Position numbers and translations under genes: made by a program | Part shown: piece by piece, positions 4,361 to 31,362 of the stretch | How positions within the stretch are numbered: the first letter of the stretch is position 1 | How the letters are laid out: every line of letters begins with the position of its first letter | The notes under the pieces: generated by a model | Database searches by the model: none | Told to the model about the DNA's origin: nothing | Seen by the model: only the letters and a program-made list of their open reading frames with translations | From: an uncultured Spartobacteria bacterium | GTDB taxonomy: Bacteria > Verrucomicrobiota > Verrucomicrobiia > Chthoniobacterales > Chthoniobacteraceae | NCBI GenBank assembly: GCA_903919125.1 | Contig: CAIXGS010000078.1 | Span: 1-56,021, forward strand | Length of the DNA: 56,021 bases | Reading direction: 5' to 3'

Positions 4361-5926
4361 ATGTCTCGCCTGCTCCCCCACTTGCTTTTCTGTTGCGTCG
4401 CTATTTCCGGCGCTACCTCACACGCCGCAACTCCCTCGCGCCCACCCAACATTCTACTGCTGCTCGCCGACGACATGGGCTTTTCCGACGCAGGTTGTTA
4501 TGGAGGCGAAGTTCTCACCCCAAACCTCGATCAACTCGCCAAAGAAGGCCTGCGCTTTACTCAGGCCTACAACACCGCCCGCTGCTGGCCCACCCGCGCT
4601 GCCATCCTCACCGGCTTCTACGCGCAGCACGTACGCCGCGACTATCTTCCGCACCAACCGGAGAGTGGCGGAGTCAAGGGACGTCGCCCCGATTGGGCCC
4701 GTTTGCTGCCCGCGCTACTCAAAACAGCCGGTTACAGCAGTTATCACTCGGGAAAATGGCACGTGGATCAAACCCCTCTCACCGCGGGATTTGATCACTC
4801 TTACAGCTTGGACGATCAAGACCGTTATTTCGCCCCCAAACGCCAGTTGTTAGACGATGTCAAACTCCCCGATCCCGAACCCGGTTATTATGCAACGACC
4901 GCGATCGCGGACCACGCACTCGACTTCCTGAAGCAGCACGCCGAGCAGTCTCCAAAGGCGCCATTTTTCGCGTACGTCGCATTCACCTCCCCTCATTTTC
5001 CATTACAGGCTCCCCAAGAGGATATTGAGCGCTACAAGGGTCGCTTCCAAGAGGGCTCAGACGTGTTGCGCACGGCACGCCTCAGCCGCCTCTGGGACCT
5101 TGGTATGCTCTCAAGCGCAGAACTTTCAGAACCCACGGCTCCCGCCAAAAATTGGGCGGAACTAACAACCGAACAACAGACGGCTTTCACCACCCGGATG
5201 GAAATCCACGCCGCGATGATCGACCGCATGGACCGGGAAATCGGGCGCATTCTCGACCATCTGCGTTCAACCGGCGCACTGGACAATACGATCGTCTTAT
5301 TTCTGAGCGACAACGGAGCCAGCGCGGAGAGCCTCGTGCGCGGTGATGGCAATCCCCCAGACGCCGCACCGGGTTCCGCAAGGTCCTTCCTCTGTTTAGA
5401 GGCGCAGGGTGCCAACCTTGCCAACGCGCCCTTGCGTTACTCTAAAAAGTACGTGCACGAAGGCGGGATTTCCACGCCGCTCATCGTCCGGTGGCCCGCT
5501 GGGTTTAAGGCGAAGGGGGAACTACGTGAACAACCTGTGCACGTGGTGGATATCGCTCCGACGCTGCTCAAATTCGCGGGAGTTCCCTGGCCGAAACTCG
5601 CGGGCGAACTCGCAGTCCCAGCCTCCGACGGAGTGGATCTAAGCGCCGCAATCAAAGAAAACAAGCAATTGCCACAGAGAGCCTTGTGGTGGGCCCACGA
5701 GGACAATTGCGCACTGCGTCTCGGGGACTGGAAGTGGGTGGCAGAAAAAGGACACGCACCAGAATTGTTTTATTTAAAAGCGGACCGTTCTGAGACTCGG
5801 GACTTGGCGCCTGCCAATTCCGAGCGGGTGAAGGAAATGGAAACGATATGGTCGAAGTTTGTTAATAAATTCGTTGAAGACACCCGTGAGCCGTCGCTGA
5901 CAAAGCAGGCACAGACAGCACCTTAA
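4361..5926 (+). CDS. Secreted sulfatase (arylsulfatase family)
   Basis: A 521-residue protein with a signal peptide (ending near SHAAT) and the sulfatase core: NILLLLADDMGFSDAGCYGG holds the first metal-binding aspartates, and C75-W-P-T-R79 with AAILTG is the formylglycine signature, where Cys is oxidised to the catalytic aldehyde. SGKWHVD, DNTIVLFLSDNG (metal-binding DN) and the C-terminal HEDNCALRLGDWKW complete the type I sulfatase pattern. The CWPTR form is common in planctomycete and verrucomicrobial sulfatases. It likely removes sulfate esters from polysaccharides outside the cytoplasm; the substrate cannot be told. It starts 114 bases after the NosR-ApbE gene and ends before a strong terminator. 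No maturation enzyme is seen in the window. Confidence 0.92.
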   Translation: MSRLLPHLLFCCVAISGATSHAATPSRPPNILLLLADDMGFSDAGCYGGEVLTPNLDQLAKEGLRFTQAYNTARCWPTRAAILTGFYAQHVRRDYLPHQPESGGVKGRRPDWARLLPALLKTAGYSSYHSGKWHVDQTPLTAGFDHSYSLDDQDRYFAPKRQLLDDVKLPDPEPGYYATTAIADHALDFLKQHAEQSPKAPFFAYVAFTSPHFPLQAPQEDIERYKGRFQEGSDVLRTARLSRLWDLGMLSSAELSEPTAPAKNWAELTTEQQTAFTTRMEIHAAMIDRMDREIGRILDHLRSTGALDNTIVLFLSDNGASAESLVRGDGNPPDAAPGSARSFLCLEAQGANLANAPLRYSKKYVHEGGISTPLIVRWPAGFKAKGELREQPVHVVDIAPTLLKFAGVPWPKLAGELAVPASDGVDLSAAIKENKQLPQRALWWAHEDNCALRLGDWKWVAEKGHAPELFYLKADRSETRDLAPANSERVKEMETIWSKFVNKFVEDTREPSLTKQAQTAP

Positions 5927-6030
5927 ATTAGAAGCGAACGCTGAAGGACGGGACGGCGGTAAGATTTCCTAAAAAAACCATTGTCACCCCACCTTGGGTG
6001 TGGCACGTTGAAGGTGTTCTGGGGGGAACA

Positions 6031-6075
6031 GCAGCCCTCCGAGTGCCAGATGGCCTCGGGGGGCTGCAATTTTTT
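6031..6075 (+). terminator. Rho-independent terminator after the sulfatase gene
   Basis: A 13-bp stem (GCAGCCCTCCGAG at 6031-6043 paired with CTCGGGGGGCTGC at 6055-6067, one wobble) with an 11-base loop is followed directly by AATTTTTTT. It lies 105 bases after the sulfatase stop and points the same way. Confidence 0.85.
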
Positions 6076-6194
6076 TGCCCTGATTTCGCAAAGGTAGATA
6101 CGCCAGCGTCAATCGGACTCAAGCGACTCCGCTCCACGCGACTCCACAAGCTTCAAATAGATCACCCGCTTCGTTTAGCGCGGCACCTCACAGC

Positions 6195-8411
6195 TTACCT
6201 CACAGGTGCCACCTCTGCGGGCTCCTCCATCACGTGAATCTGATTGATCGTCTTGAAATGACGATGGTCGTCAAAACGCCAAACAATCTTCTTATCCCGC
6301 GTCACCTCTACAAACTGCGGCTGCATCCCGATGTGACCGTGACCTAAATAATTACAAAGCACCGTATTGCCATTTTGAAGGCGCTGCACCCCAGCGATAA
6401 GACGCAAGGGGAAATCCGGCATGTCGTTCTCGTTTAGCTCCCAAACCAGCGAGCCTTTAGGGTCCACCTCAACGACCCGGTGACCGTCTCCGCAAGTGAT
6501 AAGCCAGTTGCCATCCTTGAGAGGCACGACCTCGTGAGGATCTCCTACGACCGACACCTCCCTCACAACTTTGCCTGTCGCGTCTATCTCGACGACTTTC
6601 GAGTCGCCCTTGAGCGCTGCAACGTAATGTCCGTTGGCCAGCTTTCGCGCTCCACGGATTTGGTTGTGTGCGTTCGTGATCGTGGTTGGGAGAGGAATTT
6701 CGAGAGCGACTGTGCCGTCAGGAGCGACCTCGATCAACCGCTTGGGACCGCCTTCGGCGATCAGCACGCGACCGTTCTCAAGCAATTGACAGGCATGACA
6801 TTCCACCCCTGGAGCGGCTTTGTATTCCCAAATTCGTTGCTGTTTAGCGTCCAGCCTCACTGCTCCGCCCGCTTCACAGTACAGAACGCCGCCATCCGGT
6901 TGCACCCAACAGTCCTGCGGATTCTTTGCGGGGACGCTCCACGCCACAGTCCCGTCCGCGTTGACCTTCGCCACTTTTCCACCCGCATAATCACAGGCAA
7001 CAAACGCCTTGGCTCCAAGGGTTTTCGGGAAAGCAGGTAGTGATTTTAAACCCACCGTATTGACAGCGCGCACACTCCACACGGGGGCTGATTGAGCATC
7101 GACTGGCACTTCAAAGTGCATCGCGGGAAGCTTATTCTGGAAAGGATCATCTGCTGCTGGCAACCACGCTGCCGCCACTTTCGGGTCCTTAGGAACCTCC
7201 GGCGTATCATGATAAGACATCCCTTGGAAAATGGGGCGCCCATACCGGTTCTCTTGTTTTTCCGGAAGACGCGCAATTTCGAGGCCGTCTTTCTCAATTA
7301 CAAACCCAGCCAAGCCGCTTTGTAAATCGGCGTCGGCCTGCCAGTCTAGTAGCCAACGGCCCTCTGAAAAGCGGGCGCTCAAACCGAATGGCGCCGGCGG
7401 CGGGGTCGCATCGATAACGGCTCCGTCGGTGATGTATTCGGACCAAGCTTTGGCGAAAGTCTCGTTAGGGAGCCAGCTTGCTTCAGCGGGTTCGGCGACG
7501 GTTTTGGAAAAGGTGTTCCCTTCCAAAGGCGCGAATACCCCTTTTTTAAGATCCACGGCCTTGAGCGCTGAATTGGTCGCGTTGGGAGCGGCCAAGCGCA
7601 GCCCGAGACATGCGTCAAAAAAAGGAATGGCGAGGTAGCGTGAGTCGCCACATTCGTGGGAGGTGTGCGGATCCGGAGCGAACCCCGCCGGCGCACCGAG
7701 GGCCCGCAAAGCGCGCCAGTGAGCGAGGGAACCGTCCCAGGCACGCCCAAAGCGTTTGTCGTCCTTTTCCTTGCGGCCCGGATTAAACATCACAGGCACG
7801 CCATTGGAAGCCGGCGGGAATTCGGGCTTTGCGATCTCCCCCTTCTCCCAAGCACTCAGCGCCGTTCCCGAGCGAAACCAAATGGCAGCGATCCGTTCAG
7901 GGTGCAGCGCCAACATGATACTAGCCCAGAACCCGCCGCCGCTATGTCCCCATAAACACCACGGAACAGTCTGCAATTCAGGATGTCCCGAGCGTTGGGC
8001 AAGCGTTTCGAGCGCCTTGAGAAACGCAGCGTCCGAGCCGTTTCTTGGATCACACCAGTTGCGGCAATTTTCCTTTTCCTTTTGATGATAAACGGGGGCA
8101 AGCAACGCAAAATCCCATTTACGCGCCAGCGCCTGCCAGTGCAAATCATAGGCACCGGTCTGTCCGCCCTTTGAGGCACCTTCCCCGCAACCGTGCTGAT
8201 GGACGATCACGCCACGGAGCTTTTTTTCACCCAAGCCTTCCGGGATCCAAAGTGTATAAGTCGCGTCCAAGGAGAGCTCTCCCGCCTGCGTAGCAGCCTC
8301 GTGGCGCACTCGAATGTAGCCGTCCTCAGCGTGAAGGTTAGACGCGGAAGATAGCGAAATTATTGCAACGCAAAGCGCGGCAGCGGAACGGAAACTGAGG
8401 GGGAACTTCAT
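6195..8411 (-). CDS. Secreted alpha/beta hydrolase fused to a C-terminal beta-propeller
   Basis: A 738-residue protein with a signal peptide ending near residue 28 (NLHAED). Residues about 45-290 form an alpha/beta hydrolase: VIVHQHGCG near the oxyanion region and GHSGGG with the nucleophile S157. A fibronectin-like linker (about 330-440) leads into a C-terminal repeat domain. Its blades repeat phrases such as GTVAWSVP, VLIAEGGPKRLIEV, HYVAALKGDSKVVEID, WLITCGDGHRVVEVD and GNTVLCNY, as in PQQ-like or arylsulfotransferase-type propellers. The family suggests esterase activity on a polymer, with the propeller as a binding module; the substrate is unknown. It converges on the sulfatase gene from the other strand. 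Confidence 0.75.
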   Translation of the reverse strand: MKFPLSFRSAAALCVAIISLSSASNLHAEDGYIRVRHEAATQAGELSLDATYTLWIPEGLGEKKLRGVIVHQHGCGEGASKGGQTGAYDLHWQALARKWDFALLAPVYHQKEKENCRNWCDPRNGSDAAFLKALETLAQRSGHPELQTVPWCLWGHSGGGFWASIMLALHPERIAAIWFRSGTALSAWEKGEIAKPEFPPASNGVPVMFNPGRKEKDDKRFGRAWDGSLAHWRALRALGAPAGFAPDPHTSHECGDSRYLAIPFFDACLGLRLAAPNATNSALKAVDLKKGVFAPLEGNTFSKTVAEPAEASWLPNETFAKAWSEYITDGAVIDATPPPAPFGLSARFSEGRWLLDWQADADLQSGLAGFVIEKDGLEIARLPEKQENRYGRPIFQGMSYHDTPEVPKDPKVAAAWLPAADDPFQNKLPAMHFEVPVDAQSAPVWSVRAVNTVGLKSLPAFPKTLGAKAFVACDYAGGKVAKVNADGTVAWSVPAKNPQDCWVQPDGGVLYCEAGGAVRLDAKQQRIWEYKAAPGVECHACQLLENGRVLIAEGGPKRLIEVAPDGTVALEIPLPTTITNAHNQIRGARKLANGHYVAALKGDSKVVEIDATGKVVREVSVVGDPHEVVPLKDGNWLITCGDGHRVVEVDPKGSLVWELNENDMPDFPLRLIAGVQRLQNGNTVLCNYLGHGHIGMQPQFVEVTRDKKIVWRFDDHRHFKTINQIHVMEEPAEVAPVR

Positions 8412-13199: not shown

Positions 13200-14780
13200 A
13201 TGTCTTCAGCGCCCATTCACAGCCGTCTCCTGATTCTCGATTTCGGATCGCAATACACCCAAGTCATCGCTAGGCGTATACGCGAGGCCCAAGTGTACTC
13301 GCAGATCGTCCCCTATGACACTTGCGCGGAGGAAATTCGAAAAATTGCCCCGAAAGGAATCATTCTCTCAGGCGGCCCCGCTAGCGTCTACGGAAGCAAG
13401 GCACCGCAGCCTGATCCGGAAATTTTCAAGCTGGGTATACCAGTACTCGGGATCTGTTACGGCATGCAACTCATGGGGCATCACTTGGGTGGAAAGGTGG
13501 AGCACTCCGAGCGCCGCGAATACGGGATGGGCAGCTTAGAGGTAGTCAAGGATTGCGCTCTCTTTAAGGGACTTGGATCCTCGCTTGAAATCTGGAATTC
13601 CCACGGTGATAAGCTCACCAAATTGCCGGCTGGATTCCGAATTGTCGCTAAAACCTCCAACAGTCCATACGCGGCAATCGAGCACCCAGGCAAAAAGTTT
13701 TTCGGCCTACAATTTCACCCCGAGGTGGTTCACACCCCCAAAGGCCGAGAGATTTTAAAAAACTTCGTGTTTCATGTCTGCGGCTTCACCGCTGACTGGA
13801 CCATGGGCTCCTTCATCGACGAGAGCTGTGCGCGCATCCAAGAACAAGTGGGAAAAGACCACGTCATTTTAGGGCTAAGCGGAGGAGTGGATTCAAGCGT
13901 GGCGGCTGCGCTGATTCACCGCGCAATCGGAGAGCAGCTCACATGTGTTTTTGTGAATAACGGCTTACTTCGGGCGAACGAAGAAGACGCAGTTCGCAAG
14001 CTCTTCGGCGATAATTTCCAGATGAAGCTTCGAGTGGTCAACGCCTCGACTCAATTCCTCTCCAAGCTCAAAGGCGTCACAGATCCCGAACGCAAACGGC
14101 GCATTATCGGCAACGAATTCATCAAGGTATTTGAGGGGGCAGTTGAGAAGCTCGCCGGTGGTAGCGCGAAGTCCAAGACGCAGAAGTTTAAGTTTCTAGC
14201 TCAAGGAACTTTATACCCCGACGTTATCGAGAGCGTTGCCATTGCTGGAAACCCTGCTGCGCTCATCAAGAGTCACCACAACGTTGGGGGTCTGCCCAAA
14301 CGCATGAAATTCCAGCTGGTGGAGCCCTTGCGCGAACTTTTCAAGGATGAGGTTCGTGAGGTCGGCGCAAAGCTAGGGCTGCCAAAGGAAGTCGTTCAGC
14401 GCCAACCTTTCCCTGGCCCAGGGCTCGCCGTTCGCATTCTAGGGGGCGTGACCCGGGAACGTCTCAGGGTACTGCGGGAAGCAGACTCGATTGTCGTCGC
14501 GGAAATGAAGGCGTCCAACTGGTATTACAAAGTCTGGCAAAGCTTTGCCGTGCTCCTTCCCGTGCGCTCTGTGGGCGTGATGGGAGACGAGCGCACTTAT
14601 GAAAATACGGTGGCCCTCCGCATCGTAGAGAGCCAGGACGGCATGACCGCCGACTGGGTGAAGGTGCCCTACGAATTGCTCGCTCGAATTTCGGGCCGCA
14701 TCATTAACGAAGTCAAAGGCGTCAACCGCGTGGTGTACGACATTTCCTCAAAACCACCCGCCACAATCGAGTGGGAGTAG
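13200..14780 (+). CDS. guaA: GMP synthase (glutamine-hydrolysing)
   Basis: A 526-residue protein of normal length. The N-terminal class I glutamine amidotransferase has [21 protein letters not shown] and GICYGMQ with nucleophile C86; QFHPEV carries the catalytic His. The ATP-pyrophosphatase domain has [12 protein letters not shown] (P-loop) and the C-terminal dimerisation domain has [13 protein letters not shown] and the closing KPPATIEWE. It converts XMP, ATP and glutamine to GMP in the cytoplasm. It lies 253 bases after tRNA-Tyr; that leader shows no purine-riboswitch-like core that could be recognised by eye. Confidence 0.97.
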
Positions 14781-22016: not shown

Positions 22017-24764
22017 ATGGATAACCAACGGATGCTGGCCGGCCAGCGGATTGTGAGTGATACGGAACCCGAACTGGGGCTTGGGATTGTGCTCAAAACT
22101 GACGCCTCGAGGATGGAGGTGTTTTTCCCCGCAACTGGGGAGCAACGGCAGTACGCCTTGAAGAACGCACCATTGCGCAGGGTGCGTTTCAAGGACGGTG
22201 ACCGCCTGAAGTTGCACAGTGGGGAATCTTTTGTGGTGGATGCGGTTGAAGAACGGGACGGTCTGTTATTTTACCACGCAGGGGATAAGGAAATCCCGGA
22301 AGCGCATCTTTCGGACACCATTAGCTTCAGCTCACCCGAAGAGCGCTTGCTCGCTGGCCAAGTCGACGATTTGTACGCCTTTGACCTTCGGGCAGAGTCC
22401 TTGGGGCGCCGGGCTGCGATCTTGCAAAACCCTGTGCGGGGATTTCTTGGGGGGCGCGTGGACTTACTTGCTCACCAGATGTTTATCGCGAACGAAGTAG
22501 CGACACGACCTCAGCCTCGAGTGCTGCTCGCGGACGAAGTCGGTCTAGGGAAGACAATCGAGGCTGGGCTTATTTTGCACAGACTTCATCTCAGTGGCCG
22601 CGCTGGGCGGGTGCTTGTTTTACTTCCAGAACCTTTGATTCACCAATGGTTTGTCGAAATGTGGCGACGCTTCAATCTGCTCTTCAGTATTTTCGACGCC
22701 GAGCGGTGTCTTGCAGTGGAGGCGACCCAACCTGGGGTGAACCCGTTTCTAGAAAATCAGTTGGTCATCACAAGCGTCGCTTTCTTAGCAGGCGACCCAG
22801 CGCGCGGCGCGCAAGCGGCGGAGGCTGGTTGGGATTTATTGGTCGTGGACGAGGCGCATCACTTGCGGTGGAGTGCCGCTGATCCAAGCGTGGAATATAC
22901 GCTCGTCGAAACGCTTGCGTCGAAGATTCAGAGTCTGCTTCTGCTCACGGCCACGCCCCAGCAGCTCGGACCAGAAAGCCACTTTGCTCGTCTAAGACTC
23001 CTAGATCCTGCCCGTTACTCCGACTTGGAACGCTTCACAGCGGAGGCGGCTCACTACGAAGTTGTGGCAGCGACCGTCGACCGACTGCTTTCCGGTGAGG
23101 TGCCAACGCCCAAGGATACCAAGTTTTTCGGGGCGCATTCGAAACGCATTCAGGACTGGTGCAAGGCACTGCAATCCGGAGACGAATCCGTCCGACAGCC
23201 CCTCCTTGTGGCGCTCCTAGACGCGTTTGGCACTGGGCGGGTCATGTTTCGAAATACGCGAGCGGCGTTATCTGGGTTCCCTGAACGCAAAGCTCTCTTG
23301 GAGAAAATTAAGCCGGGCAAGGACGGGAACGCCTTTGGAGCCAAGATCAAGTGGTTGGTTTCTTTCCTTAAAGAGAAGCCGGATGCCAAGGTGCTCTTGA
23401 TTTGCAAAACCCGCCGTCTTGCCGAGCGGATTCATACGGAACTTCAAGCCGAGATTGCGGTGCCCGCCGGTTTGTTCCACGAAGGCCTCACGCTCATTCA
23501 AAGAGATCGCAACGCCGCATTTTTTGCGGAACCGGAAGGGGCGCGTCTTTTGATTTGCTCCGAAATTGGCAGTGAAGGCCGCAACTTTCAATTCGCCCAC
23601 GACCTGGTACTCTTCGATCTGCCAGCAGATCCCGAATTACTCGAACAGCGAATCGGGCGCCTCGACCGCATTGGGCAGACGGCAACGATTCAAATCCACG
23701 TTCCCTATTTGACTGGCACTGAGGAGGAGGTTTTGGCGCGCTGGTACCACGAGGGACTGGGCGCTTTTGAAGCGACGCCTCATGGGGCTGCAGCCATTGC
23801 CGCAATGCAACGCTCAGATTTGGATGCGCTTTGCGAGGAATTCGAGCCCCCGCAACTCAAGACTTTCATCAAGCAGACTACGACATTGCGGGCGAAAGTT
23901 GCCGTGCAGCTAAAGCACGGATACGACAGACTCTTGGAGCGTAGTTCCTGCAGGATGCCGGAGGCGAACCAGGTGCTGGAGGCGATCAGAGCGGCTGACA
24001 GCGACGCCTCCTTTGAGTCCTTCTTCATGCGATTACTCGACTTCTTGGGCATCGGCGCAGAGCCCCAAGGCGCAGAGCACCGCAGTTTTCTTCTGCAACC
24101 CGGCTTTTTACAGAAGGAGCCGCTGCCGGGCCTCCCAGTTGATGGCCTTGTGGGAACTTTCGAGCGCGGGCGGGCACTGAGCCGAGAAGATGTGAGTTTT
24201 CTGAGCGCCGACCATCCTCTGGTGGCGGGGGCGCTGGAAATGATGCTGGGTGGAGAGTCGGGTAACTCGTCGTTTGGAGTCTGGAAAGGCGGTGGGAAAG
24301 AGTCGCTATTGCTCGAAGTGTATGCCGTGGTGGAGTGCGTCGCACAAACGTCCCTTCACTCCGATCGTTTTTTTCCCGCTACGCCCGTAAGAGTGCTGGT
24401 GGACCATGAATCAAACGATCTCACCGATGAGTTTCCGGCAAGCGCCCTAGTGCTTGAGGCGGGAGAAAGCACACGGTTACTGGAGAAGGCGGTGGTGCGG
24501 CGGAAATTGATTCCCACGATGTTGGCCAAGGCGCAAGAACTAGCCAATGCACGAGCCAAAACGTTCACAGAAACGGCGACGGCCCTGATGAACGCTCAAT
24601 TGAGAGCCGAGATCAGTCGTTTGGAGGAACTCAGCGAGCTCAACGACCATGTGCGCCCCGAGGAAGCTGCGATGTTGGAGGCTCAGCGCGCGGCTTTGGA
24701 AGCAGCATTTGCAAATGCACGTCCTCGCGTCGATGCTTTACGCCTGATCCTGCGCACCCCCTGA
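22017..24764 (+). CDS. rapA: RNA polymerase-associated protein RapA (SNF2-family ATPase)
   Basis: A 915-residue protein with the RapA layout. An N-terminal Tudor-like region (about 1-110) is followed by the SNF2 helicase core: motif I ADEVGLGKT with K179, motif II D278-EAH281, motif III LLLTATPQQ, the long insertion, and the helicase C part with ICSEIGSEGRNFQFAHDLVLFDLP and EQRIGRLDRIGQ. The C-terminal spacer domain reaches the end. RapA binds RNA polymerase and uses ATP to help recycle it after transcription. The family is best known from gammaproteobacteria but is wider. It starts 102 bases from the divergent cvfB gene. No helper gene is seen. Confidence 0.92.
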   Translation: MDNQRMLAGQRIVSDTEPELGLGIVLKTDASRMEVFFPATGEQRQYALKNAPLRRVRFKDGDRLKLHSGESFVVDAVEERDGLLFYHAGDKEIPEAHLSDTISFSSPEERLLAGQVDDLYAFDLRAESLGRRAAILQNPVRGFLGGRVDLLAHQMFIANEVATRPQPRVLLADEVGLGKTIEAGLILHRLHLSGRAGRVLVLLPEPLIHQWFVEMWRRFNLLFSIFDAERCLAVEATQPGVNPFLENQLVITSVAFLAGDPARGAQAAEAGWDLLVVDEAHHLRWSAADPSVEYTLVETLASKIQSLLLLTATPQQLGPESHFARLRLLDPARYSDLERFTAEAAHYEVVAATVDRLLSGEVPTPKDTKFFGAHSKRIQDWCKALQSGDESVRQPLLVALLDAFGTGRVMFRNTRAALSGFPERKALLEKIKPGKDGNAFGAKIKWLVSFLKEKPDAKVLLICKTRRLAERIHTELQAEIAVPAGLFHEGLTLIQRDRNAAFFAEPEGARLLICSEIGSEGRNFQFAHDLVLFDLPADPELLEQRIGRLDRIGQTATIQIHVPYLTGTEEEVLARWYHEGLGAFEATPHGAAAIAAMQRSDLDALCEEFEPPQLKTFIKQTTTLRAKVAVQLKHGYDRLLERSSCRMPEANQVLEAIRAADSDASFESFFMRLLDFLGIGAEPQGAEHRSFLLQPGFLQKEPLPGLPVDGLVGTFERGRALSREDVSFLSADHPLVAGALEMMLGGESGNSSFGVWKGGGKESLLLEVYAVVECVAQTSLHSDRFFPATPVRVLVDHESNDLTDEFPASALVLEAGESTRLLEKAVVRRKLIPTMLAKAQELANARAKTFTETATALMNAQLRAEISRLEELSELNDHVRPEEAAMLEAQRAALEAAFANARPRVDALRLILRTP

Positions 24765-24903: not shown

Positions 24904-27900
24904 ATGAAATCAAAAATCCAAGAAAGAACGGCTAAACCGTCTTATAAGCCCATTTCAATTCCAACGGCGACGACAGCGAGTTCACCGATATTACAAAAAT
25001 TGCTGAAGGATATTGATAAGGGCAAAATGGATCTTGGGGAATTAATAGCCGCCGCTGAATCGTTAAAGGCTACAGGCGAAGTCGAATCAAGCGTCGCACT
25101 CTATTCGGCTTGGTTAAGTAAAACCACATCCCCCTTGCGCTATGTCGCGCTTTTTAACCAAGCGGTGGGCCTCGCCCAATTAGGACGAGACGTTGAAGCC
25201 GCAACGACCTACGGAGCGGCCGTTGCTCTGAAATCCGACTTCCCAGAGGCGCGGGTAAATCTCGGGCTGACTCTAGAAAAACAAGGGCACCCGAAGGAAG
25301 CCCTCGAACAGTGGAAGGCAGTCTACGACCAACCCTCCACTCCGGTGGCAATGTTGACCACAGCACTCAACCACACAGGGCGTCTGCTCGAGGAAACTCG
25401 CGAATATGAACTGGCCGAGCAGGCTCTGACTCGCAGTCTGGCGGTGAACCACAATCAGCCTGACGCCCTACAGCATTGGGTGCACTTACGCCAGAAACAG
25501 TGTAAATGGCCCGTTTACTCCGAGCTTCCGGGCATTTCCAGGGCGGACATGCTCCTAGCGACCTCCCCGCTAGCCATGCTGGCCGAGGCCGATGATCCCG
25601 CGCTTCAGTTGCTTTCAGCCCAATCTTTTGCACACAGAAAATTATCCTTTCCCGAAGCCCGCCTCTGCGAAGGACGCCGCTACCATCACAGGCGGTTGCG
25701 TGTCGGCTATCTCTCTTCAGACTTTTGCGTACACGCCGTAGGACTGCTTTTAGCGGAGTTGTTTGAAAATCAAGATCGCTCCCAATTTGAGACGTACGGA
25801 TTCTGCGTTTCAAGAGAGGATGGCTCTGCGCACCGGCAACGAATCATTGCCTCGCTGGAACATTTTGAGCGGGTCGGCCACCTATCGGATGAACAAATTG
25901 CACGGCGTATTCTGGAATGTGAGATTGACATTTTAGTGGACTTGAACGGCCTGAGCTCCGGCACCCGCGTGGCAGTTCTGGGCTACCGCCCTGCGCCAGT
26001 TCAGGCAACATGGCTGGGCTTCATCGGCACGACCGCACTGCCGTACATTGATTTTGTCATCGCTGATGCCTTCGCTATTCCGGAGGATCTCGCGTCCTAC
26101 TACCGCGAAAAACCGCTATATTTACCCCATAGCTTTCTCCCCAGTGACAGCCGGAGGGAGGTGGGCGCGAATACAAACAGGGCTGCCCATTATTTACCTG
26201 AGGATCAATTCGTCTTTGCGTCGTTTAATAATATTTATAAGCTAAATCCGCGGATGTTCCAAGCGTGGATGGATATTTTACTCCGCGTCCCAAACAGTGT
26301 GTTGTGGCTTTTGGATGACAACCGTTGGGCGACTGCGAATTTAACTGAATTCGCACGAAGCCGTGGAGTAGATCCCAAACGGCTCATTTTTGCGGGTCGG
26401 ATCGATCCTCGGGATCATCTCGCTCGCCTTCCCCTCGCCGATTTGTTCCTAGACAACCACCCATACAACGCGGGCTCCACCGCCCATGACGTCTTGTCCA
26501 AGGGACTGCCCATGCTGACCCTCAGTGGGCGCACATTCGTTTCACGCATGGGAGGAAGCCTCCTAACCGCCCTCGGCTTGCCCGAATTGATCGCCCATTC
26601 CCACGAGGAATACGTCGAAAAAGCGGTTCAAATCGCCTCGATCCCAGGCCGCGCTCCGCAGTTGCGTGAGCATTTACTTTCTGCGCAAAAAAAAGCGAAC
26701 GCGCCCACCGCAAAACTGTTCGCACATAACTTGGAACGTTTATTCCTCAAAGCGGCAGGCCGCGAAATCGCCGAAACGCCCTCCAAACGCGTCAAACGGA
26801 CTCCGAACGAGCGTTCGTTACTCGTAAGAGGCTGGCGCGATATCAATCATTCTTATTCTTTAGTAAATCAATTTCAATTGATTGAACTACTCAAGAAAAA
26901 GGAACTTCACTTATCACACGAAGATCTCCCCTACCACTCTCCTAACTGGTCGCCCTCCCAAAATAGCGTTGGTTTTAGTTCAGAAACGTCTCAGAAACTT
27001 TCTTCGATTCCGGCGCATCACGGAGAAGAAGCGGACGTGGTTTTCAGCATTTCCTCCCCTTTCTCCCTTTACCGAGGGCCCGCGAAAAAAGTGGTTACGT
27101 TCATGGTGACCGAACTGGGCTTAGATCAAAGTAGCCTCACGCCAGACAGCCAGAATATAGCCGCCTTTTCAGAAGGGCGCAACTGGGTGGTTACGCCATC
27201 CCATTGGTCAAAGAAGAAGCTCGAGCTTGGAGGGATCGCCCCCGATCGAATCAAAGTAATTCCTCATGGCGTAGACCGGCAGATTTTCCGTTCACCCACG
27301 CCGCAGGAGCGAGAAATGGGCCGCAGCCAACTAGGCCTCGCCCCGGATGACTTTGCATTCCTCAACGTGGGAGGTGCTTTCTGGAACAAGGGGGGCGACT
27401 TGCTACTGCGCGCCTTCGCGGAGGTGCGAAAGAAGCACCGCAACGCCAAATTAGTGATCAAGGACAACCGGGGACTGTACGGACGTACCGCGGATCAGCT
27501 GGTCTCTTCGGTTCAGGAGTCTCATCCCGGATTGCTGACCCCTGATGTTCTTCAGGGCGTCGTTGTATTGCCAACCGCGCTCACCATGGAACAGCTGCGT
27601 TTGCTTTACGGCGCATCGGATCTCTACGTGTCGCCCTACCGCGCAGAGGGCTTCAATTTACCCGTGTTGGAATCCATGGCTTGCGGCCTGAAAGTCATCG
27701 TTACCGAAGGCGGTGCAACCGATGACTTTTTCTTCCCAGAGGTTTGTACTTCAGTGAAGAGCACATTCACGGATCACACCAAAACAGCGCTGAATACCAA
27801 AGGCGACTTTCTTGAACCCGATTTAGAAGATTTAACAAATAAAATGATGGCTGCAGTTGAAGCGGGAAATCCCTCTCAAAACGCCATCTCACCGGCACTA

Positions 27901-28866
27901 GACGCCTTCCTGAACACTTTGTCTTGGGAAGCCGCGACAGACAAACTCCATACCTTTCTTTTCGATTCACTCCCCGAAGAATATTCCATTCTGCCGGCAG
28001 AGCAGCCTCGCGCCGACCGTTCTCTTCATATTTATTGCGACGGTGGATTTGGCAATCGCTTCAACGGATTGGTGAGCGGTTTAATTCTCGCAGAAGCCGC
28101 AGGCCTCAAACCAATCATCGTTTGGCCCATCAATAATTGGTGCAGCGCCAAATTCTCAGACATTTTTGAAAATACTGAGTTCGAGGTGATTGAACGGGAG
28201 TTGCTGGAATACGCCCCAGACAAAGAGAAGTTCCATTTCTTTATGACGGAGGATCACCTCAAACTTGGGGTGCCATTTCATTCGCCACTTGCGGTATCAA
28301 CCCTCGACGATGCCGTACATTTTCTGAAATCTGATTCGCGGGATGCCTATTATCACAGCCCACTCATTCCTGGTTATCTCGATTGGGCGCGAGTAAAACC
28401 CTACATTCAGAAATTGCGAATCCAACCAGCGATTACAGGCCGTGCCGACGCTTTTATTCGTGAAAAACGCCTGCCCGAACCCTTTTTTGGAATTCAAATT
28501 CGCAAGACGGATTTTGGAGCCAACGGTGCGGATGACAAACAATTGTTCGAATTGATATCAAAGGGGAAAGACAAAACCTTCTTTGTGTGTTCCGATGACA
28601 AGACGGTTGAACAAAAGTTTGGCCAACTCAAAAATGTAGCGATTTATGAGAAAGGCGCTTATGTGGAAAAGCGAATCAGCGGAGACTGGACAGACTTAAC
28701 AGCAGACCATAGTGGGCGCATATACCCCTGCAACGTGCACCGAAGCGCCGAGAGCGTGATTGAGGCTGTGATAGATCTTTTAATCTTGTCTCGCTCCAAA
28801 GTCGTTAAAACCTCGAATAGCACCTTCTTGAACACGGCATTACTACTGCAAGCGGCTAGGGAATAA
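24904..28866 (+). CDS. Three-module glycosyltransferase: TPR-OGT (GT41), GT4 and NodZ/O-FucT-like domains
   Basis: A 1320-residue protein without signal peptide. Residues about 35-210 are TPR-like helices (VALFNQAVGLAQLGRD, EARVNLGLTLEKQGHPKEALEQW). Residues about 264-625 match O-GlcNAc transferase: GYLSSDFCVHAVG (with the family His), PVQATWLGFIGTTALPYIDF, SFNNIYKLNPRMFQAW (with the Lys) and NHPYNAGSTAHDVLSKGLPML. Residues about 645-1000 are a GT4 domain: NWVVTPSHWSKKKL, VIPHGVDRQIF, SPYRAEGFNLPVLESMACG. Residues from about 1040 resemble NodZ/O-fucosyltransferases: GGFGNRFNGLVSGL, FGIQIRKTDFG, KTSNSTFLNTALLLQ. TPRs usually choose the protein substrate, so this could build a short glycan on proteins in the cytoplasm. 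Activities of each module are inferred from family membership. Confidence 0.88.
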   Translation: MKSKIQERTAKPSYKPISIPTATTASSPILQKLLKDIDKGKMDLGELIAAAESLKATGEVESSVALYSAWLSKTTSPLRYVALFNQAVGLAQLGRDVEAATTYGAAVALKSDFPEARVNLGLTLEKQGHPKEALEQWKAVYDQPSTPVAMLTTALNHTGRLLEETREYELAEQALTRSLAVNHNQPDALQHWVHLRQKQCKWPVYSELPGISRADMLLATSPLAMLAEADDPALQLLSAQSFAHRKLSFPEARLCEGRRYHHRRLRVGYLSSDFCVHAVGLLLAELFENQDRSQFETYGFCVSREDGSAHRQRIIASLEHFERVGHLSDEQIARRILECEIDILVDLNGLSSGTRVAVLGYRPAPVQATWLGFIGTTALPYIDFVIADAFAIPEDLASYYREKPLYLPHSFLPSDSRREVGANTNRAAHYLPEDQFVFASFNNIYKLNPRMFQAWMDILLRVPNSVLWLLDDNRWATANLTEFARSRGVDPKRLIFAGRIDPRDHLARLPLADLFLDNHPYNAGSTAHDVLSKGLPMLTLSGRTFVSRMGGSLLTALGLPELIAHSHEEYVEKAVQIASIPGRAPQLREHLLSAQKKANAPTAKLFAHNLERLFLKAAGREIAETPSKRVKRTPNERSLLVRGWRDINHSYSLVNQFQLIELLKKKELHLSHEDLPYHSPNWSPSQNSVGFSSETSQKLSSIPAHHGEEADVVFSISSPFSLYRGPAKKVVTFMVTELGLDQSSLTPDSQNIAAFSEGRNWVVTPSHWSKKKLELGGIAPDRIKVIPHGVDRQIFRSPTPQEREMGRSQLGLAPDDFAFLNVGGAFWNKGGDLLLRAFAEVRKKHRNAKLVIKDNRGLYGRTADQLVSSVQESHPGLLTPDVLQGVVVLPTALTMEQLRLLYGASDLYVSPYRAEGFNLPVLESMACGLKVIVTEGGATDDFFFPEVCTSVKSTFTDHTKTALNTKGDFLEPDLEDLTNKMMAAVEAGNPSQNAISPALDAFLNTLSWEAATDKLHTFLFDSLPEEYSILPAEQPRADRSLHIYCDGGFGNRFNGLVSGLILAEAAGLKPIIVWPINNWCSAKFSDIFENTEFEVIERELLEYAPDKEKFHFFMTEDHLKLGVPFHSPLAVSTLDDAVHFLKSDSRDAYYHSPLIPGYLDWARVKPYIQKLRIQPAITGRADAFIREKRLPEPFFGIQIRKTDFGANGADDKQLFELISKGKDKTFFVCSDDKTVEQKFGQLKNVAIYEKGAYVEKRISGDWTDLTADHSGRIYPCNVHRSAESVIEAVIDLLILSRSKVVKTSNSTFLNTALLLQAARE

Positions 28867-29304: not shown

Positions 29305-31362
29305 TTAACCCCTCCGCTTAAGCCAAATCCAGCCGCCACCTGCTGCTGCTACCAAACAAAAACAAACGCTGGTAAAGGTAAACCAAGGTGCCGATTTAGG
29401 CGTATCAATGTCGCACTGATGTAGGATCACACGACTGCCATCGCCACGATCGGGTCCGAGAACACGGATCGTATTAAGGGCACCCGGCGTGAGGCTCAGC
29501 ACCGTCAAGGTTACCTTTCCCGTCGCATCGCGACGCCCTTTTATCGCACTTCTCGGGCCCCAATCGATACGCAGCGAACCGTCTGCAGAGCGTTCCAAAG
29601 AACGGAAATGCACAAGAAGTTGCTCAGGCGCGATCGCTGCGGCGAGCGGGAAGATGAGCGTGGCCCGATCCGATTTCACCCCTGTCATCGTCAATCCGTT
29701 AAGCAAGGCGCCTTGGGCAAAAGCCTGTGTCATCGTGTGGATAGTGGCGGGATCCAGCTCTGTAATTTGAGAACGGGTGGCCGAGACCGAGGCAATGAGG
29801 GACTGCTGAGGCGCAACGTCAGATGCAAACGACGTCGGAGCGGACGACGAAGCCGGCGGGGCGGCCTCAACAGCGGCGATCGTTGCAGGACTTTCGAGCG
29901 GAACGAGACGCGGAAGTGGCGCGACTTCGAGAGCCAAAACGTGCTCACCATCAGGACCGCGAATTTTGAGGGGTCCAAGGGTCGCCGGAGCAGGCTGGGC
30001 GGTTAGGAATAGGGAAACGCGCGCGGATTCTCCCGGCGCAAGTTGCAAATTAGCCTGCGTGCTCAACGGTGCGCTGCCCACACGAAGCGAACATCCCACA
30101 GGGCATTGCAGCGCCCAAGAACCCGCTTGCCCCCCCTCATTTCTGAGCAAGACGCTGGGGGCTGGGTCCGAGGACATTTGAGAAAGACGCAGCGGCGCTT
30201 GATTCATATCCACCCCGCCTAACGACGGGCCCAGAGCTGCCGCCTCCCAAAGCAGCACCTTCGTTTCGTGTTCACCTCCCCCCGAAAGAGTCAACACGCC
30301 AGAGTAACTACCCGAAATTCGAGTCATCGAGCGCAAGGGAATCGCGACTTGCTGATGCGGCGCAAGACGGACTTCCGCGGGATGTTCCAAGGGTGGCTTA
30401 GATGTCAACGTGACGGTTTGTGTATCGTCGCCTTCGTTAGATAATTGGAGTTGGCACATGCGCGTTTGAGACTCGATGGCGCGTAATTTAAGAGGGTCAG
30501 GACCCGCCTGAATCCAGTCCCGCACCTCTGCCGTCAACGTCACAGTTTTCGAAGAATCTCCTTCGAATCGCAATTCCCCAACCGATTTACCGGCCAAGAT
30601 GGGAGTCAATTCAACCGACAATGTTCGCTTTTGACCCGGAGCCAATTGCTCCGATGACTCGGGGTTGGTCAGCGTCCACGGGGGTGTCACATTAACGGAG
30701 CCGACAGCCGGCAAATCACCCGCGTTGTGGACTTCCAACGTAAGGGTCTTGCGCTCACCCACACGTACGGTGCCGAAGTCCAACTGGGCAGCAACCTCGA
30801 GTTTAGGGCCGCGGTCCACAATCTTGATTTGCACCACGGCTTCACCTGAAACACCTTTGGAATTCGCAGCCACAAAGGAAAAAGAGTCCGTCGAAAGAGC
30901 CAAATTCAAGGGTGGCGTGTATTCTACCTGCGCGCCATCTCCCTGCGCTGAAAGAAGGCGCACCGAGCCGTGCTTGGGGGATGCACGGAGAAGAAAGGTC
31001 ACCACTCCCAACTGGCTTCCCACGACTTTTAGAGGAATGCGTACGGCCTCACGACCGATCACAGTGTAAACGAGCGGCACAGGGATGGGGAGAGAGCCGG
31101 ATTCTGCTTTGGAAAAATTCCCAAACGGAGCCGCGCTACCCCTCTCCGAGAAGGCTAGTAGAACGAAAACTGCGCAAAAAAACGCCCAAAAGAGAATGCG
31201 CAAGTTTGGAGAAAAACGCTCCGCAACTGCTCTCGAAGCTACCCCCGTTCCTCCCAACTTAGAAATGCGATTCAAAAGCAAAGCCCGCAAAAGGTTTAAT
31301 ATTTTGAATGGATAGGCCCTTGGATAAACTTCGCGCATACGGCCACTGACATCGTGGCACAT
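29305..31362 (-). CDS. Cell-surface protein with Ig/ASH-like domains and C-terminal membrane anchor
   Basis: Up to 685 residues; the start is uncertain (ATG at 31362 or 31338). An N-terminal hydrophobic segment (LRILFWAFFCAVFVLLAFS) preceded by a basic region suggests a signal peptide or anchor. A cadherin/Ig-like domain (VVTFLLRASPKHGSVRLLSAQGDGAQVEYTPP, written here in part) and several ASH/HYDIN-like beta-sandwiches follow (LDFGTVRVGERKTLTLEVHN, LAPGQKRTLSVELTP, and a similar LAPGESARVSLFLTA). The C-terminal 25 residues are a membrane helix with a basic end (GGWIWLKRRG). The layout suggests an envelope protein facing the periplasm or outside. No catalytic motif is seen and no function is claimed. 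Confidence 0.6.
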   Translation of the reverse strand: MCHDVSGRMREVYPRAYPFKILNLLRALLLNRISKLGGTGVASRAVAERFSPNLRILFWAFFCAVFVLLAFSERGSAAPFGNFSKAESGSLPIPVPLVYTVIGREAVRIPLKVVGSQLGVVTFLLRASPKHGSVRLLSAQGDGAQVEYTPPLNLALSTDSFSFVAANSKGVSGEAVVQIKIVDRGPKLEVAAQLDFGTVRVGERKTLTLEVHNAGDLPAVGSVNVTPPWTLTNPESSEQLAPGQKRTLSVELTPILAGKSVGELRFEGDSSKTVTLTAEVRDWIQAGPDPLKLRAIESQTRMCQLQLSNEGDDTQTVTLTSKPPLEHPAEVRLAPHQQVAIPLRSMTRISGSYSGVLTLSGGGEHETKVLLWEAAALGPSLGGVDMNQAPLRLSQMSSDPAPSVLLRNEGGQAGSWALQCPVGCSLRVGSAPLSTQANLQLAPGESARVSLFLTAQPAPATLGPLKIRGPDGEHVLALEVAPLPRLVPLESPATIAAVEAAPPASSSAPTSFASDVAPQQSLIASVSATRSQITELDPATIHTMTQAFAQGALLNGLTMTGVKSDRATLIFPLAAAIAPEQLLVHFRSLERSADGSLRIDWGPRSAIKGRRDATGKVTLTVLSLTPGALNTIRVLGPDRGDGSRVILHQCDIDTPKSAPWFTFTSVCFCLVAAAGGGWIWLKRRG

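Follow-up and report, generated by a model that had tools for sequence, protein, structure and literature searches.

What does a bacterial protein do that carries three glycosyltransferase modules behind one tetratricopeptide repeat (TPR) arm, and on which acceptor would it act? The question arises from a 56,021-nucleotide stretch of DNA from an uncultured Spartobacteria bacterium (contig CAIXGS010000078.1 of GenBank assembly GCA_903919125.1), analysed at its full length and called the window below. On its forward strand, positions 24904-28866 hold a single open reading frame that starts with ATG, runs for 1320 codons with zero internal stops and encodes protein P0001, in the order TPR, GT41, GT4 and NodZ/O-FucT-fold domain. 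An earlier reading of the bases alone, the original prediction, had described an unbroken 1320-residue frame with three distinct glycosyltransferase modules and a TPR arm in one protein, and both observations are confirmed at these coordinates. Our data suggest, with moderate confidence and on the basis of sequence comparison, that P0001 is a soluble, cytoplasmic, multi-step protein glycosyltransferase building a short O-glycan on a giant repeat protein, the ALTTAQ protein, before export. This substrate candidate is new relative to the original prediction, which named none.

In the mechanism that we infer, which covers what each module does, in which order and from which donors the sugars are added, the acceptor in this organism and how it is exported, the TPR arm would hold the giant Ser/Thr-rich octapeptide-repeat protein and the GT41 domain would attach a first sugar to Ser/Thr of its repeats. 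The GT4 domain would lengthen the glycan, and the NodZ/O-FucT-fold domain would cap it with L-fucose or a related GDP-sugar. The finished glycoprotein would then be exported to the cell surface, probably via a type I secretion system (T1SS).

The N-terminal TPR region (residues ~45-200; 25036..25503, + strand) is recognized by the Pfam families TPR_2, TPR_11 and TPR_16, of which TPR_2 and TPR_11 exceed the Pfam cut-off, with TPR motifs at residues ~90-190. It is 58% identical to the TPR region of a congener's GT41-GT4 protein. The following GT41 (OGT-like) catalytic domain (residues 255-615; 25666..26748, + strand) matches Pfam PF13844 with an E-value of 4e-73 and 246.8 bits (curated cut-off 25), and its best solved relatives in a phmmer search of the PDB are XcOGT (2jlb, E 3e-76) and human OGT. 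In the active-site alignment, Lys446 (NNIYKLNP) falls on the OGT catalytic lysine (NQLYKIDP; reference positions K842 in human OGT and K665 in SPINDLY), and His277 sits within a DF..H motif. The TPR repeats and the OGT-type domain with its key His and Lys, both proposed from the bases alone, are thus borne out. Tyr521 occupies the position of Cys917 in human OGT, as does the tyrosine of SPINDLY and XcOGT, where a small residue would mark a strict O-GlcNAc transferase; this position has been tied to donor size (PMC9715652). Because of Tyr521, UDP-GlcNAc as the donor of P0001 is an assumption that appears doubtful, and the first sugar need not be GlcNAc.

The ALTTAQ protein emerges as candidate acceptor from the genomic context of related enzymes. 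Two loci retrieved for the C-terminal fucosyltransferase-fold (FucT) module alone, from Syntrophobacteraceae (L048) and Hyphomicrobiales (L049), each also hold a TPR-GT41 gene, a GT4 and a repeat protein of the ALTTAQ type (Pfam PF20080). L048 contains GT4-FkbM-FucT together with TPR-GT41 and ALTTAQ, and in L049 the counterparts of GT41 (51%), GT4 (38%) and FucT (36%) are separate genes, accompanied by ALTTAQ and flagellin. We ran tblastn with ALTTAQ and, separately, with the TPR-GT41 region against 72,556 plasmids and compared where the matches lay: ALTTAQ was found within 9 kb of 22 of the 23 best GT41 matches (bits >= 340), a count that includes strains of one species, which are not independent. 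The remaining match belongs to Shinella sp. PSBB067, in which ALTTAQ sits on a different record; for most weaker plasmid GT41 matches, ALTTAQ is absent from the record. The TPR-GT41 gene directly adjoins the ALTTAQ gene in Pseudomonas, Pseudorhizobium, Rhizobium, Cereibacter and Rhodovastum plasmids. It likewise lies directly downstream of the ALTTAQ gene in genome G019, and in genome G195 it starts 83 bp after it on the same strand.

The same association appears at the level of whole genomes. Among 57 relatives, all nine genomes with a strong GT41 match (E <= 1e-34) fall within the 13 that have ALTTAQ (Fisher p 8e-8, a guide only, as the cut-off was set after the data had been seen and the genomes are related). 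In a sample of 388 genomes from the phylum, two have ALTTAQ, and both belong to the three whose GT41 is closest. In a maximum-likelihood tree, P0001 falls into a GT41 clade of 11 (support 100/99), all of whose members are ALTTAQ- or T1SS-linked or are GT41-GT4 proteins of congeners. The linkage between this clade and ALTTAQ, often with a T1SS, extends over Pseudomonas, Alphaproteobacteria, Syntrophobacteraceae and the window's own phylum. We define the ALTTAQ-linked TPR-GT41 clade by tree position, an ALTTAQ gene in the genome and adjacency to ALTTAQ or T1SS genes; P0001 shows the first two features, and adjacency is seen in its relatives but not here.

The source genome encodes one ALTTAQ protein, on contig C77, of at least 6807 amino acids, its gene running off the contig end. 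It has a period of 8 residues (ALTTAQVV) and a Ser+Thr content of 29%; the repeats begin directly after the N-terminus, and no signal peptide is evident there by eye. P0001 is the only GT41 of the ALTTAQ-linked type in this genome. An AlphaFold2 model of 265 amino acids of L049 ALTTAQ repeats, computed with no alignment, gave short helices of about one per 8 residues (pLDDT 79, pTM 0.54) and five models of widely unequal confidence, and was not used.

The TPR-GT41 architecture and the conserved Lys446 would also fit a nucleocytoplasmic-style regulator resembling OGT or SPINDLY, which adds single sugars to many cytoplasmic proteins. However, a single kind of secreted-type protein accompanies this GT41 clade, P0001 has a short TPR arm, and two further transferases suggest an oligosaccharide rather than a single sugar, so that we regard a regulatory role as very unlikely.

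The probable export of the ALTTAQ protein by a T1SS is suggested by analogy with relatives. One congener carries its GT41-GT4 gene in an operon with ABC and HlyD genes (L061), four further relatives show the arrangement ALTTAQ-ABC-HlyD, and the ALTTAQ/TPR-GT41 loci include TolC/HlyD/ABC genes in Pseudomonas and ABC/HlyD genes in Cereibacter and Pseudoroseomonas. Contig C77 ends inside the ALTTAQ gene, where the transporter would follow. In three Alphaproteobacteria (L049, L136 and L137), the neighbours of the ALTTAQ/GT41 genes are flagellin or flagellar genes, and flagellar export or a flagellar role is to be considered.

A flagellin acceptor would make P0001 an enzyme of the FlmG kind known from Caulobacter, whose additional domains would lengthen the flagellin glycan. 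FlmG is a TPR-type enzyme with a domain set that differs from that of P0001. It modifies the flagellins of Caulobacter as a modular glycosyltransferase working in the cytoplasm on proteins bound for export (PMC7591256), the setting proposed for P0001 too, but its substrate is flagellin. The source organism has flagellins, and flagellin genes are also present in the ALTTAQ/GT41 loci L049 and L137. In the source genome, however, both flagellin genes seen (5452-6258 and 13931-14734 of locus L058, C27:62001-82000) flank a separate enzyme of another GT41 clade, a 1424-residue protein with two TPR-GT41 units (9234-13508 of L058), and no flagellin gene was seen among the open reading frames of the window. 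The double-GT41 protein is likely a flagellin glycosyltransferase, and we consider it quite improbable that P0001 serves this purpose. Several congeners also have frames of about this length that contain two GT41 units.

The GT4 domain, likewise anticipated in the original prediction, spans residues 637-1020 (26812..27963, + strand) and matches PF00534 with an E-value of 6e-16 and 58.9 bits (cut-off 26.4) when searched alone, or 6e-15 from the whole protein, with an EX7E motif at E915/E923. Its identity is 57% and 53% with the corresponding domains of two congeners, and 38-43% with those of L047, L048 and L049. A search of the plasmids with this domain at E 1e-25 gave zero matches.

The C-terminal module (residues 1038-1320; 28015..28863, + strand) resembles NodZ, FUT8 and the POFUT enzymes in fold, and contains the motifs GGFGNR, IQIRKTD with R1200, and FFVCSDD. 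Searched alone, its 283 residues gave no relevant Pfam match and no PDB sequence match. In phage genomes, tblastn found a Synechococcus phage S-SCSM1 protein annotated 'fucosyltransferase NodZ' with 33% identity over 98% of the length. A scan of viral contigs with the single FucT sequence returned no matches; with a two-sequence alignment of the module and the S-SCSM1 protein as query, 13 phage-like loci in IMG/VR and four loci of metagenome-assembled genomes (MAGs) in species genomes were obtained. Motifs of the GGxGNR, xRxTD and FFVxSDD types are kept in the resulting 15-member family alignment, 12 of the 15 members match Pfam O-FucT (PF10250) weakly (best 6.8e-6), and a family profile search of the PDB gave three matches in all, among them CePOFUT1 (E 0.04) and NodZ (E 1.3). 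R1200 corresponds to the arginine of the HxR motif, is invariant across the 15 members and lies in a motif that the family profile aligns with AVHLRN of CePOFUT1.

An AlphaFold2 model of the module (pLDDT 91.9, pTM 0.91) matches NodZ (Z 15.9), FUT8 (15.5), POFUT2 (15.3) and AtFUT1 (15.2), with POFUT1 within Z 13-16; the next unrelated fold, a GT9 protein, follows at Z 9.5. The module shares this fold and the GGxGNR and xRxTD-type motifs with NodZ, FUT8 and POFUT1-2, but it is only ~13-20% identical to them, lies below Pfam recognition and is fused to GT41 and GT4. The NodZ/O-FucT-like domain proposed earlier is hence right at the level of fold, whereas the module itself has no Pfam fucosyltransferase match; its fucosyltransferase activity and donor are predicted. 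The genes for GDP-L-fucose, fcl and gmd, adjoin in the source genome (C40:3728-5793), where fcl is 74% identical to that of a congener and is recognized by NCBIfam as GDP-L-fucose synthase. In congener G010, gmd and fcl adjoin the start of an ALTTAQ gene (L131, G010:C96, 3993-6114).

Cyanophages and phage-like contigs (L033, L034-L046) hold a NodZ-like gene within glycan islands. Because a GDP-mannose-3',5'-epimerase lies near the NodZ-like gene in S-SCSM1, GDP-L-galactose is a possible donor. In locus L050 (2-4887), a NodZ-like gene standing alone is preceded by the ABC/HlyD pair of a T1SS and by the end of a protein that is rich in Ser, Thr and Ala but not of the ALTTAQ type.

Both joints of the fusion are seen elsewhere. 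TPR-GT41-GT4 occurs over its full length in three congeners (G006, G003 and G001), a fourth (G008) ending at a contig end, and G006 is matched over 1079 amino acids with 69% identity in GT41 and 57% in GT4. GT4-FucT occurs on a Burkholderiales MAG contig (L047), with a FucT part 63% identical to that of P0001. Since each joint recurs in other genomes, misassembly was rejected as the cause of the fusion, which is not an accident of assembly at one joint. Among the relatives searched, the exact four-part order was met only in P0001; more widespread is a pattern of TPR-GT41(-GT4) with an ALTTAQ protein.

The FucT module was found neither in any congener searched nor in other members of the phylum sample, apart from a match of 60 residues in G195, which we consider too short to call homologous. 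As the congeners have TPR-GT41-GT4 without FucT, and the G+C content of the FucT module is 0.468 compared with 0.536 for GT41 and 0.515 for GT4, the module looks recently acquired by P0001. Together with nearest named relatives in a phage and in MAGs of other phyla, this could mean that the C-terminal module is an add-on, perhaps from a phage or without function, and that the working enzyme is TPR-GT41-GT4. Every conserved FucT motif is nevertheless intact in the alignment, the fusion to GT4 is shared with L047, and GDP-fucose genes are present in the genome; we judge this reading unlikely.

Several points weigh against P0001 as the ALTTAQ glycosyltransferase. Its gene lies on contig C78 and the ALTTAQ gene on C77, so the two are not adjacent in this genome, and a search of the 95%-complete MAG for the T1SS known from relatives yielded no ortholog (best ABC 33%). 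The absence of the FucT module from all congeners searched implies that it is not essential to the system. Some related GT41s have no ALTTAQ link (Azospirillum, and Collimonas beside a YadA-like adhesin), and several of the compared loci are MAG contigs. On the Collimonas plasmid (L140, 9676-16677), ~3 kb separate the TPR-GT41 gene, which belongs to the wider group, from the gene for the YadA-like adhesin, another possible surface-protein substrate.

P0001 could alternatively act in capsule, lipopolysaccharide (LPS) or exopolysaccharide synthesis, with an acceptor other than the ALTTAQ protein. Polysaccharide synthesis often involves GT4 and FucT-fold domains, the window contains a dense glycan gene island, and the cyanophage FucT relatives lie within such islands. 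In contrast, TPR with GT41 is a protein-acceptor architecture, and this GT41 clade follows ALTTAQ genes rather than polysaccharide loci, which makes a polysaccharide role about as improbable as a flagellin acceptor.

Glycosylation of the ALTTAQ protein by P0001 would be related to, and distinct from, several known systems. XcOGT and human OGT share the TPR arm, GT41 domain and catalytic lysine, but P0001 has two additional transferase domains, a tyrosine in place of Cys917 of the human enzyme, and relatives linked to one secreted-type repeat protein; for XcOGT, no substrate was detected in bacterial lysates (PMC9715652). SPINDLY, a GT41 protein O-fucosyltransferase, has the tyrosine at the donor-size position and a protein acceptor in common with P0001, but transfers fucose by GT41 itself and has no GT4, whereas P0001 has a separate NodZ-fold domain and a GT4. 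The adhesin N-glucosyltransferase HMW1C (ApHMW1C) offers a parallel as a cytoplasmic GT41 whose gene is paired with that of a large, exported, adhesin-like protein. However, HMW1C consists of GT41 only, targets N-x-S/T, of which the 6807 residues of the source organism's ALTTAQ protein contain none, and serves two-partner secretion in place of the T1SS suggested here by relatives.

The protein-bound oligosaccharide, perhaps fucose-capped, of the original prediction finds support as protein glycosylation with a fucosyl-type sugar in the domain and fold tests, the GDP-L-fucose genes and the linkage of the GT41 clade to ALTTAQ; its UDP-GlcNAc donor was only assumed. The idea of an undescribed system holds in part: all component families are known, but a literature search, with most subscription journals outside its reach, turned up no publication that mentions the ALTTAQ repeat or pairs it with GT41. 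It is a tentative idea, which we hold to be rather less than an even prospect, that a complete trisaccharide with a fucose cap is assembled by one cytoplasmic polypeptide at hundreds of Ser/Thr sites in a >6800-residue octapeptide-repeat surface protein, mucin-like and without a lipid carrier or oligosaccharyltransferase, as part of a widespread undescribed ALTTAQ-GT41(-T1SS) glycoprotein system in several phyla. With its three transferases in one chain, P0001 would offer the cytoplasm a compact way to make a defined oligosaccharide on a protein. Although OGT-like enzymes abound in bacteria, a natural substrate is known for few of them; the conserved ALTTAQ pairing names a testable one in culturable strains (Cereibacter sphaeroides, Pseudomonas asturiensis and Rhizobium).

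Upstream of the P0001 gene lies a RapA-like SNF2 helicase (22017..24764, + strand; NCBIfam PRK04914, E 5e-300), outside the system. The downstream convergent neighbour (29305..31362, - strand) encodes an ASH/choice-of-anchor D protein with no evidence of membership in the system; it was dropped as a substrate, being convergent and with no such gene seen beside the congeners' GT41-GT4 genes in their open reading frame lists. Further downstream, the glycan island (34974-55000) is a dense series of apparent glycosyltransferase, asparagine synthase and methyltransferase genes, probably for polysaccharide or LPS synthesis.

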